Of a stretch of DNA of 60,112 nucleotides, positions 2,982 to 60,112 are shown one piece after another. The position numbers and the translations under genes were made by a program. Source of the DNA: a virus; the IMG/VR virus record IMGVR_UViG_3300022918_000112, positions 1-60,112 of that record; one strand, written 5' to 3'. Position 1 is the stretch's first letter, and each line of letters starts with the position of its first letter. A model generated the notes under the pieces. The model had not been told where the DNA came from. It ran no database searches and worked only from the letters and a program-made list of their open reading frames with translations.

Positions 2982-3008
2982 AAAAGCCCGGTTCCGATCG
3001 GGCTTTTT
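2982..3008 (+). terminator. intrinsic terminator or attenuator in early leader A
   Basis: AAAAGCCCG-gttccgat-CGGGCTTTTTT forms a GC-rich stem with a T run on the + strand. It lies between the start-stop ORF (2911-2916) and the gene at 3110, so it would attenuate transcription entering the operon unless antitermination acts. A smaller stem, CGTCACG/CGTGACG, lies just upstream at 2951-2976. Confidence 0.75.
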
Positions 3009-3024
3009 TACGCGTGCCTTTATC

Positions 3025-3080
3025 CGTCAGCACTCTCCCCTGCGCCCAACGGCAACCAGCAGGAGGCCCGAGTGCTGACG
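3025..3080 (+). promoter_or_regulatory. structured leader element, copy 1 (conserved GCCCAACGGCAACCA loop)
   Basis: A perfect 11-bp stem, CGTCAGCACTC (3025-3035) with GAGTGCTGACG (3070-3080), encloses 34 bases. Inside, CTGC (3040-3043) pairs with GCAG (3059-3062) around the 15-base loop GCCCAACGGCAACCA. Copy 2 at 55783-55830 keeps the 34-base spacing and the identical loop, while the inner stem becomes CCGC/GCGG, a compensatory change. It lies 30 bases before the ATG of the gene at 3110. An RNA element acting on antitermination or translation is inferred. Confidence 0.6.
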
Positions 3081-3109: not shown

Positions 3110-3391
3110 ATGCACCAACTACTTCAACAGCGAGTCGACGGGGTTGCCGCCCTGCGTGCCCGCGCAAGCATCGCCACCGCCGCTTTCTACGCCTTGATTG
3201 GCAAGGATCAGCCCGTGCAAGAGATTCGCTACCAGGTTCAAACCAAGGGCAACGCCTATCACATCGTTGAGCGCTCCACCGGCCTGACCAAAGGGTTTCG
3301 CTGGACCTGGAAAGAAGCAATCAACTTGGCTCAGGTACTGGAAGCTCGCGCCGACGGCATCAAGCTCTCGCTGTCAGGGGTGCGGAAATGA
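3110..3391 (+). CDS. small phage early protein, unknown function
   Basis: 93 residues beginning MHQLLQQRVDG. ATG with GAGGAATCGCC upstream; the frame is open further upstream but that part lies in the structured leader. Mostly helical with a basic patch around KGNAYHIVERSTGLTKGFRW. It is the first gene after leader A, and its stop overlaps the start of the next gene, implying translational coupling. No family recognised. Confidence 0.75.
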   Translation: MHQLLQQRVDGVAALRARASIATAAFYALIGKDQPVQEIRYQVQTKGNAYHIVERSTGLTKGFRWTWKEAINLAQVLEARADGIKLSLSGVRK

Positions 3392-11274: not shown

Positions 11275-12324
11275 ATGCGACCCCGCAAGGCCGAAACACG
11301 TAATTTGCCGCCCCGGATGTACCAGTGGACGCGGCCACGGAAAAGTGGAAAGGACTGGATTGCCTATTACTACTTGGACATGACCGGCAAGGCGATCCCA
11401 TTGGGCAAAGACCTGGACCTCGCCAGGATCAAATGGGCAGAACTCGAAGCCAAGGAAAAACCTCTCGACCTGCGCACCATGAAGGGAATTTTTGACAGGT
11501 ACATCCGCGACATCGTGTCCAAGAAAGCGCCGCGCACCCAAAAGGACAATCTGTCGGAGATCAAGCAGCTGCGGCCGATGTTCGACAGCGCCCCCATTGA
11601 CTCGATCACCCCGGCCACGATTGCCGGGTACCGGGATGCACGGACGGCAAAGGTTCGGGCGAATCGTGAGATTGCCACCCTTTCCCACGTGTTCAACATT
11701 GCTCGGGAATGGGGGCTGACAACCAAAGAAAATCCCTGCCAAGGCGTTCGCAAAAACAAGGAAACGCCGCGGGACTATTACGCAAATGACGTGGTTTGGG
11801 ATGCTGTTTACAAGAAGGCAGCTCAAGAGCTGAAAGATGCGATGGACCTGGCCTATCTGACCGGGCAACGGCCGGCAGACGTGCTGATTATGCGGAAGGA
11901 TGATGCAGAAGGAGGATACCTGGGGGTGCTACAGAACAAGACGCACAAAAAGCTGCGGATTCAGATGACCGCCGGAGGCGAGGCAAACAGCCTAGGACGA
12001 TTGATCGCGGAAATAACGGCGCGCAATGCTCAGCACCTATCCAACTACCTGATTGTGAGTCGGCACGGTAAAAGGATGACCGCGACGATGCTGAGAAAGC
12101 GGTGGGACATTGCGCGCGAGAAAGCAAAGTTGGCCGCGATCGAGATCGGCGACGAGCTGCTGGCGACAAAAATCGGTGGATTCCAGTTCCGTGATATCAG
12201 GCCAAAAGCTGCTTCTGAAATCCTCGACATTGGGGAAGCGAGCTTGCTTCTGGGTCACACCAAAGGCGACATCACGGAACGCGTTTACCGCCGCATCGGC
12301 GCCATTGCCAAGCCGTCAAAATAG
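11275..12324 (+). CDS. int: tyrosine integrase, lambda type
   Basis: 349 residues. The N-terminal arm-binding domain (AETRNLPPRMYQW, then ARIKWAELEA) matches the lambda Int N domain; a SAM-like core-binding domain spans about 70-160; the catalytic domain has the first Arg in LTGQRPADVL, box II FRDIRPKAAS, LLLGHT and the nucleophile Tyr in ITERVYRRIG. In box II the usual HxxR is RxxR, so the first His is replaced. It reads directly into the attP region, the usual int-attP arrangement. Function: site-specific integration into a tRNA-Ser gene, inferred from attP. Confidence 0.93.
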   Translation: MRPRKAETRNLPPRMYQWTRPRKSGKDWIAYYYLDMTGKAIPLGKDLDLARIKWAELEAKEKPLDLRTMKGIFDRYIRDIVSKKAPRTQKDNLSEIKQLRPMFDSAPIDSITPATIAGYRDARTAKVRANREIATLSHVFNIAREWGLTTKENPCQGVRKNKETPRDYYANDVVWDAVYKKAAQELKDAMDLAYLTGQRPADVLIMRKDDAEGGYLGVLQNKTHKKLRIQMTAGGEANSLGRLIAEITARNAQHLSNYLIVSRHGKRMTATMLRKRWDIAREKAKLAAIEIGDELLATKIGGFQFRDIRPKAASEILDIGEASLLLGHTKGDITERVYRRIGAIAKPSK

Positions 12325-53564: not shown

Positions 53565-53646
53565 GTGCCTGGAGAAAAGCTCGCAAGCCCCCGGCTACCG
53601 AAACAAATAGGCCAATGTTTCTTGCCAAAATATGGCAGGAACAATA

Positions 53647-53662
53647 CTGTACATGCATACAG
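53647..53662. promoter_or_regulatory. LexA (SOS) box
   Basis: CTGTACATGCATACAG fits CTGT-N8-ACAG of LexA sites with flanking TA on the left. Lies 20 bases before the ATG of the DUF1654 gene. Implies induction with the SOS response that also inactivates CI. Confidence 0.85.
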
Positions 53663-53682
53663 TTATAGCAAGGAGCTTTTCC

Positions 53683-53934
53683 ATGTCAAAAATCGCGTCA
53701 CCCGCTTCGCATGCCAGAGACTCATATGAATTGGTTGGTCGGCGCATCCAGCGTCTGATAGCCGCGCCAGGCGTTCAGAAGATCCAAGTTGTCACCGTCG
53801 CCCGCAACGATGATGAAAGCCCAGAGGCTTGGCGTCAGGTAATCCAAGACATCGAAGAAACGAGCGGCGTGCGCATTGAGCACCTGGACGGCGGCGCCGT
53901 CAGGATCGGATGGCGACAGTACTGCGAAGCGTGA
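53683..53934 (+). CDS. DUF1654 protein, SOS-controlled
   Basis: 83 residues; AAGGAGC before the ATG. SYELVGRRIQRLIAAPGVQK, DDESPEAWRQVIQDIEETSG, VRIEHLDGGAVRIGW match the DUF1654 family as I recall it, which is common in Pseudomonas and its phages. The preceding LexA box makes it damage-inducible. Role unknown; perhaps modulates the SOS response or recombination at induction. Own terminator follows. Confidence 0.85.
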   Translation: MSKIASPASHARDSYELVGRRIQRLIAAPGVQKIQVVTVARNDDESPEAWRQVIQDIEETSGVRIEHLDGGAVRIGWRQYCEA

Positions 53935-53980: not shown

Positions 53981-54019
53981 ATAAGCACGCTTATTGACGA
54001 ATAAAATAGGTGTGCTTAT
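53981..54019. promoter_or_regulatory. OL: two CI/Cro operators
   Basis: ATAAGCACGCTTAT (53981-53994) is a perfect palindrome identical in its half-sites to O1 of OR; ATAGGTGTGCTTAT (54006-54019) is an imperfect copy. Starts are 25 bases apart, similar to OR spacing. Confidence 0.8.
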
Positions 54020-54021
54020 AT
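53994..54021 (+). promoter_or_regulatory. PL promoter
   Basis: TTGACG (53994-53999), 16-base spacer, TTATAT (54016-54021). The second operator overlaps the -10, so CI would silence it. Drives the left early operon (54196 to 59531). Confidence 0.65.
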
Positions 54022-54195
54022 TTCAATCCATCGCAACCCAGTCCCCACATCGGGACCAGCTGCGAAGGGTCGAGAGATCCGCCGCTCTTTAACAGCTCAG
54101 GATCCTCGCCATCGACTACCCCGGGTTTCAGCCGGTAAGAGCGAGCAATAAATAGTTGATGCCACGCCAGCTCTGGAACTGGCCGTGCCTTCCAC

Positions 54196-55133: not shown

Positions 55134-55873
55134 ACAACCAGCGCCACGACAGCCTGTCGTTAACTGCCCGATCCTCTCCACGAGAGCGCATCGGTAGTCG
55201 CTGTCTGGAAGAACCACGGGCCTCCGCTTGCGGGCATGGCAAGGGCGGCAGCGACTACCGATGCGGACGAAACTGCGGCCTATAACCGCCCACCTGCATC
55301 AAATCCCAGAATCGGTTGTTATCGAGCGCTGGCGAACTGAACACGGCCGTGGAACTCGGCGCCGTAGACGTGACCGGCAAGCAGATGAATGCGCAGTGCT
55401 GATGCGCATAGGGCTCGGGCCTTGTTGGGATACCTCACGGGATTACAGGGGTGAGGATCGAAGCCGGTCATGCGGAACAGTGACATGACGAACTCAGTAC
55501 TTCATGCCGGGATCAGCTCCGGCCATCTGCACCACCAACTGCCAGAGCGCACCGCCGCAGTTGAAACCCTGCACGGAGGATTTGCAGCCATGCACCAGTA
55601 AGCAATCGCTGCTGAGCAGCAGTGTTCCCAGCCACTAAAGAGCCGGGCGCTTGGGCCGACGAGAGAATATCGGTTCCGGAGAGCGCGCTTTGTCAGCGCC
55701 CCGCAGCGGGTATATCCCACAGGATCTGCTGATGACATCAGCGCCGGACAAGTAACCGGCCACCCTCCCGACACCACCCGCATGCACTCCCCTCCGCGCC
55801 CAACGGCAACCAGCGGAACGGATGAGTGCAGCCGAGTTTTGTTGGATCAACACCCGCCACTCTGGAGGCGACC
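55134..55873 (+). promoter_or_regulatory. 740-base leader B without a clear gene
   Basis: Contains a 14-bp stem (CGGTAGTCGCTGTC at 55192-55205 with GGCAGCGACTACCG at 55247-55260, one G-U), then ATGCGGACGAAAC and CGGCCTATA, then at 55575-55601 GGAGGATTTGCAGCC with a three-codon ORF (ATG CAC CAG TAA, 55590-55601), and the structured element at 55783. The same parts in the same order make up leader A (2795-3080). An ORF at 55228 has no family features and is not accepted. Confidence 0.55.
55783..55830 (+). promoter_or_regulatory. structured leader element, copy 2
   Basis: Outer stem TGCACTC/GAGTGCA, 34 bases enclosed; inner stem CCGC (55794-55797) with GCGG (55813-55816); loop GCCCAACGGCAACCA identical to copy 1. 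Ends 43 bases before the ATG at 55874. Confidence 0.6.
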
Positions 55874-56122
55874 ATGGCAACCAGCTATGCAGACGGTGCG
55901 CAGGCCCGAGAGTGGGACAGGCGCTACGACGCTTGGGGGCGCGAGAAGAAATCGAAACCCAACGAGTTCCACGACTACGAGGCTGCCGAGCAGATGCGCA
56001 CTCAGGCGCTGGCTGATCGTGCTGCCCGCGCAATCGAAGAGCGCAAAAGCCTGAAGCGGCGCATTGGCCTGGCCATGGCGCAAATGGAAGAGGTCTGTCC
56101 GCCAAGAGGAGGCGCAGCGTGA
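55874..56122 (+). CDS. phage early protein, unknown function
   Basis: 82 residues, TGGAGGCGACC before the ATG. MATSYADGAQAREWDRRYDA, WGREKKSKPNEFHDYEAAE: charged and helical. First gene behind leader B, overlapping the next by four bases. Confidence 0.7.
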   Translation: MATSYADGAQAREWDRRYDAWGREKKSKPNEFHDYEAAEQMRTQALADRAARAIEERKSLKRRIGLAMAQMEEVCPPRGGAA

Positions 56123-59623: not shown

Positions 59624-59624
59624 A

Positions 59625-59650
59625 AAAAGCCACCTGCGTAGGTGGCTTTT
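59625..59650 (-). terminator. galU terminator (copy 2)
   Basis: AAAAGCCACC-tgcgta-GGTGGCTTTT, the same stem as in copy 1 with a different loop. Marks the phage boundary: phage sequence ends at or within a few bases of it. Confidence 0.85.
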
Positions 59651-59673
59651 CAATACAAGAAGCTCAGGTTCTA

Positions 59674-60112
59674 TCAGTAGGCCTTGCCAGTCTTGTAGAA
59701 GTGTTCGAAGCAGAAGTTGGTGGCCTCGATGTAGCCTTCAGCGCCACCGCAGTCAAAACGCTGGCCCTTGAACTTGTAGGCAATCACGCAACCGTTTTTC
59801 GCCTGCTTCATCAGGGCGTCGGTGATTTGAATCTCACCGCCTTTGCCTGGCTCGGTTTGTTTGATCAGCTCGAAAATATCCGGCGTCAGGATGTAACGGC
59901 CGATGATCGCCAGGTTCGACGGGGCATCTTCCGGGGCTGGTTTTTCGACCATGTTGCGAACGCGGTACAAATCATCAGCGATCAACTCGCCGGCGATCAC
60001 GCCGTACTTGTTGGTTTCCATCGGATCCACTTCCTGGATCGCAACGATGGTGCAGCGATACTGCTCGTACAGCTTGACCATCTGGGTCAGGACGCCGTCG
60101 CCTTCGAGGTTG
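59674..60112 (-). CDS. galU: UTP--glucose-1-phosphate uridylyltransferase, 3' part of second copy
   Basis: The C-terminal 145 or so residues of GalU, running off the window edge. Apart from FCFEHFYK (Asn in copy 1) the protein is identical to copy 1; about ten base differences, nearly all silent, show the two are distinct alleles or paralogues and not an exact duplicate. It has its own terminator and the phage directly downstream where gor would be expected. Confidence 0.95.
   Translation of the reverse strand, partial: NLEGDGVLTQMVKLYEQYRCTIVAIQEVDPMETNKYGVIAGELIADDLYRVRNMVEKPAPEDAPSNLAIIGRYILTPDIFELIKQTEPGKGGEIQITDALMKQAKNGCVIAYKFKGQRFDCGGAEGYIEATNFCFEHFYKTGKAY

Follow-up and report, generated by a model that had tools for sequence, protein, structure and literature searches.

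The window, our name for the whole 60,112-nt stretch of DNA analysed, carries two hairpins that were confirmed to be members of a real, undescribed RNA family common among Pseudomonas prophages. By its position, the element is the module with which the pL leader of Pseudomonas lambdoid phages usually ends.

Both copies lie on the plus strand and share one architecture. Copy 1, a class I leader hairpin of type A (3025-3080), is built from an outer stem P1 (3025-3035/3070-3080), the inner stems P2 (3039-3043/3059-3063) and P3 (3044-3046/3051-3053), and a bulge (3054-3058). The corresponding parts of copy 2, a class I leader hairpin of type B (55783-55830), are P1 (55783-55789/55824-55830), P2 (55793-55797/55813-55817), P3 (55798-55800/55805-55807) and the bulge at 55808-55812. 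Their outer arms differ in sequence (CGTCAGCACTC/GAGTGCTGACG in copy 1, TGCACTC/GAGTGCA in copy 2), each pair with 34 nt between the arms, and the inner stem reads CTGC/GCAG in copy 1 and CCGC/GCGG in copy 2. The 15-mer GCCCAACGGCAACCA is the same in both copies (3044-3058 and 55798-55812), with no third match in the window even when three mismatches were allowed. Rechecking the sequence bore out the coordinates, the stem letters, the 34 enclosed bases and the identical 15-mer given in an earlier, sequence-only reading. What had been described as a 15-base loop is a 3-bp hairpin, GCC-CAAC-GGC, followed by the 5-nt bulge AACCA, and stem pairing often runs outward past the arms as originally drawn. 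When compared with 200 shuffles, both copies folded better than all of them (z = -5.9 for copy 1 and -3.6 for copy 2).

The first start codons are found at 3110, 30 nt past the stem of copy 1, and at 55874, 44 nt past that of copy 2, in agreement with the earlier proposal that the element directly precedes the opening gene of an early operon. The gene following copy 1 (3110-3391, plus strand) encodes 93 aa with no Pfam family; the product of the gene following copy 2 (55874-56122, plus strand) begins MATSYADG. The presence of two copies makes the window unusual, one strong copy per phage being the rule (40/41 virus records). Copy 1 is located between galU and an operon running toward the integrase gene (11275-12324); the 396 nt that separate galU from the element contain neither a pL nor a boxA. 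If the excised genome is circular, copy 1 would be transcribed from the pL of copy 2, by polymerase that has already crossed the exonuclease gene and then the attachment site. Part of galU is duplicated at both ends of the prophage record (489 bp, 96% identity, 1730-2216 and 59624-60112); the left copy is complete and adjoins gor, and the right copy is cut by the record end.

The hairpin was readily recovered elsewhere. A 17-nt query consisting of the bare loop and two bases matched at least 120 IMG/VR contigs, and 110 of the 118 exact matches with enough flank carried the same hairpin. Since only 467 of 20,000 random positions (2.3%) satisfied the same hairpin definition, the structure around the loop is not due to chance. 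A structural pattern search returned 50 Pseudomonas loci. The sequence-only reading had named further copies and covariation, sought with a covariance model, as its own test; such a model detected the element in 118 of 398 genomes of a genus Pseudomonas sample holding one genome per species (about 30%), and covariation exceeded the controls. At family level the element was present in 33/298 genomes. An order-level search matched four genomes, all already among the genus and family finds and none outside the family, a class-level search matched the centre genome alone, and a search of plasmids returned no copy. No Rfam 15 family matched the element in the window at the gathering threshold, and around copy 1, with E values up to 5, there were only chance matches over neighbouring sequence. 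The sole Rfam match in the window at gathering level was Proteo-phage-1 RNA (RF03044; 43550-43629, minus strand). RT-15 RNA (RF03018) was seen downstream of the element copy of Pseudomonas phage SC_8_H2H8_2017 (locus L176, 10892-11083). Our literature search did not find the loop sequence in any text, and the parts of the phiAH14a and PseuP papers reached by keyword look-up do not describe the leader.

Stem positions vary across the family in a manner that preserves pairing. In an alignment of 90 distinct sequences, which leans toward the model, two-sided changes were observed at 14 of 19 base pairs, and these included double inversions (C-G to G-C and A-U to U-A). Paired cells reached 92.1%, versus 82.0% in shuffled and at most 46% in slid alignments, and the covariation score was 0.283 versus no more than 0.084 for slid partners. 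Loci fetched by the loop alone displayed the same trend. Compensatory changes therefore exceeded the controls, the mark of a conserved structured RNA, and this result, together with the fixed tip, upheld the selected RNA structure postulated from the two copies. G-U cells outnumbered A-C cells (72 vs 27), which indicates that the functional strand is the plus strand, acting as RNA. Consistently, the covariance model scored about 20-29 bits on the reverse strand compared with 36-87 on the sense strand. The tip, GCC-CA(N)C-GGC-A with N free, was nearly invariant (1.7-2.0 bits over GCC-CA.C-GGC) and far better conserved than most stem positions. P1 together with its outward extension folded at -8.8 kcal/mol versus -7.7 kcal/mol with swapped flanks, so that the flanks lengthen the stem to a modest degree; this outer stem contains mismatches, mainly in type B, and in type A can be as long as about 20 bp. 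A pseudoknot between the CAAC loop and a downstream GTTGG, considered for type B, was discarded on inspection, the partner being missing in type A and in CATC variants. Six elements (L070, L078, L274, L277, L292 and L295) are chimeric, their 5' and 3' halves belonging to different types (A/C in one half, B in the other), which is consistent with recombination within the conserved tip. A further candidate chimera, L164, is more simply accounted for by a point change in type A.

The surroundings of the element were surveyed at 215 loci, reduced for near-identity only and detected by simple pattern scripts. The median number of alignment partners was 185 over the element and fell to about 12 at a distance of 100 nt in both directions, making it a conserved island of about 100 nt in mosaic DNA with unrelated flanks. 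The start codon of the first gene mostly lies 64-77 nt past the core start, and the element ends about 15-45 nt upstream of this codon whichever gene comes first, the genes right after it being mutually unrelated. Co-occurrence identified no universal partner gene: the top neighbour families were a repressor, in 37/67 contexts, and a DUF1654-like family, found within 4 kb on either strand in 33/67. In the window, a DUF1654 protein is encoded at 53632-53934, between the cI-like gene and pL.

Upstream, the leader has a usual order, in which a promoter with repressor-like operators is followed by a hairpin and an rRNA-type boxA, then by mosaic DNA, the element and the first early gene. The likely pL of the window (TTGACG-17-TATATT, 53994-54022, plus strand) sits inside operator-like palindromes (TATAAGC..GCTTAT) that resemble those near the cI-like gene around 49050. 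It is followed by a plus-strand segment (54032-54094) comprising a hairpin (CGCA 54032-54035/TGCG 54061-54064) and boxA CGCTCTTTAACA (54083-54094). More generally, a sense-strand boxA GCTCTTTA was present in the 3 kb upstream of the element in 67 of 91 contexts, versus 7 on the antisense strand; none was seen on the sense strand of the 3-kb downstream stretches examined, nor at the element itself. A sigma70-type promoter was located just upstream of boxA in 34 contexts, overlapping palindromes that resemble repressor operators. Sigma70 promoters were not enriched within 500 nt upstream of the element, candidates clustering at about 520-640 nt and beyond, and transcription through the leader would be driven from pL. 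The arrangement right after pL, a hairpin and then boxA GCTCTTTAACA, recalls the boxA-boxB of lambda nut and the boxB-boxA of rRNA leaders; the order is that of rRNA leaders and not that of nut. Unlike in nut, where boxA adjoins a boxB hairpin to which N binds, the boxA site is separate from the element and far upstream, at 539-2655 nt from its core (median 1395).

The intervening 0.5-2.7 kb is a mostly noncoding mosaic, often containing a start-stop mini-ORF and an intrinsic terminator. In the window, terminator AAAAGCCCGGTTCCGATCGGGCTTTTTT (2982-3009, plus strand) abuts copy 1. An upstream terminator was detected in 66/215 leaders, nearly all at the spacing seen for copy 1 (type A 58/99, type B 8/101). 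Terminators just downstream of the element were found in 3/215 leaders, and the left operons of the window showed no terminator excess downstream of it. Mini-ORFs (start-stop, or of two or three codons: ATGTAA, ATGAAATAG, ATGTGA, ATGAAGTAG) with a strong Shine-Dalgarno sequence were present in 95/215 leaders, compared with 2/215 on the reverse strand and 0-6 in shuffles, and bring the lambda bar minigenes to mind. Start-stop mini-ORFs within 170 nt upstream were found in 46/99 type A and 1/101 type B leaders. The window has two mini-ORFs, both on the plus strand: the start-stop ATGTAA (2911-2916; Shine-Dalgarno GGAGGA 2896-2901) and ATGCACCAGTAA (55590-55601; GGAGGA 55575-55580). At 2787-2843 in the window, and in about 47 leaders, the mosaic comprises recurring structured blocks such as GATGCGGACGAAACTGCGGCCTATAACCGCCCACCTGCATC, and the window has a 23-nt inverted repeat. 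The element is tied neither to one gene nor to the terminator.

In a reverse test, four leader sequences served as IMG/VR seeds, and loci were required to have at least 3.5 kb downstream. Among 145 seeded loci, the element was downstream of the seed in 119, and it was upstream of the seed in 0/243 seed occurrences. Six loci contained another hairpin, class II (GACCGCATTAGCAGATGCCAG...), and 20 (about 14%) had neither. Class II is rare, has a stem of about 24 bp that covaries in part, and shares neither sequence nor tip with the element. It occupies the same slot, 15-40 nt ahead of the first gene; where a boxA was located, it lies about 1-1.5 kb upstream, and no locus of the seeded set combined class II with class I. 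Class II hairpins start at 7432 in L381, 11725 in L650, 2690 in L653 and 351 in L654, among others (strand as read, some loci being the reverse complement). A gene resembling, by reading, the type A first gene follows them in L650 and L651, and an Rfam scan of two carriers left class II unmatched. Since class II substitutes for the element, the slot appears to need a long hairpin rather than the class I sequence, some phages having neither.

What the hairpin does can be narrowed down by its place. Because it lies past the leader terminator and far from pL, it cannot assist RNA polymerase at this terminator; with boxA at pL as the natural antitermination signal, the remaining role is an action on the early mRNA itself. 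We tentatively propose that the element is a processing or 5'-end-protecting hairpin, of the RNase III type, which would separate the leader from the early mRNA. It would act in cis on the whole early left mRNA and not on one gene. The long outer stem, P1 with its outward extension, would be cut by RNase III, whose sites have an extended double-stranded stem of about 20 bp, or would form a protective 5' stem-loop. The coding mRNA would thereby be freed of its long leader, antiterminated and for the most part untranslated, and ribosomes would keep access to their first binding site. With its 5-nt bulge, the invariant tip GCC-CANC-GGC probably either sets the fold or is recognised by an RNA-binding factor of the host or the phage. 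Accessibility of the Shine-Dalgarno sequence was 0.491 with the real element and 0.464 with shuffled ones, a small effect consistent in sign with a freed ribosome site.

Precedents exist in lambda, where an RNase III hairpin separates nutL from N, and in T7, with its early RNase III processing sites. Like these, the element is a long hairpin placed after an early leader and ahead of the start codon of the first early gene; unlike them, it has an invariant apical motif and is conserved family-wide. It would work as such sites do, and we claim membership in neither group. Three observations weigh against processing: an almost invariant tip is more than a stem used for processing alone would require, several internal mismatches leave the element less suited to RNase III than the class II hairpin is, and about 14% of leaders have neither hairpin.

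The tip lends some plausibility to an RNA operator, in which a phage or host protein recognises GCC-CANC-GGC and the bulge and controls early left translation or elongation. An apical motif with a bulge of fixed length resembles a recognition site, and its conservation far exceeds that of most stem positions, which change by compensation. However, no gene is universally linked to the element (at best 37/67 for the repressor and 33/67 for the DUF1654-like family), the first genes are unrelated, and the slot can be filled by an unrelated hairpin. We therefore consider the operator a real but lesser possibility, and favour processing or 5' protection over it. Somewhat less probable again is a broader proposal, that the whole pL leader, with its hairpin and rRNA-type boxA, mini-ORFs, terminator and interchangeable hairpins, forms an integrated N-independent early switch in which the hairpin is the receptor for a factor.

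HK022 put RNA works through the zinc-binding domain of the RNA polymerase beta' subunit to suppress termination downstream. It comprises two stem-loops in about 70 nt, with copies after PL and PR, putL being just downstream of PL (PMC9378689). The suggestion of a put-like antitermination RNA, in which the nascent hairpin would bind RNA polymerase and suppress downstream termination, is understandable, the element being likewise a structured RNA that acts in cis within the early leader of a temperate phage, ahead of a long operon, with no nearby N-like gene recognised in the leaders read. Three anatomical features of put were checked and the element has none of them: it is a single irregular hairpin and not two adjacent stem-loops, it has one strong copy, in the left operon only, and it lies 0.5-2.7 kb past pL and boxA (median about 1.4 kb), just ahead of the first gene and often after a terminator. 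With boxA already at pL and no terminator excess in the left operons of the window, we regard this mechanism as unlikely. We also doubt, slightly more strongly, that the element is kept as a recombination boundary where leader and gene modules are exchanged. Unrelated flanks and several chimeric copies suit such a role, but exchange needs identity and not compensatory pairing, and the types differ in their stems yet keep them paired. A DNA-level site (cruciform, protein operator, origin or packaging site), to which an inverted repeat in a fixed genomic slot might point, is very improbable given the strand asymmetry in G-U cells and model scores and the sense orientation of the element 5' of genes in the loci studied.

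Taken together, these results describe a widespread RNA family, carried by about 30% of the Pseudomonas genomes in the sample, that has no name or, as far as we found, description. The element marks one fixed point in otherwise mosaic phage genomes and can serve in annotation as a reliable guide to where the early left operon begins. The leader that it closes combines an rRNA-style boxA, mini-ORFs and interchangeable hairpins and, if the integrated switch holds true, would represent a new kind of architecture for controlling early phage genes. The element gives a way into the study of how early genes are switched on in Pseudomonas lambdoid phages.
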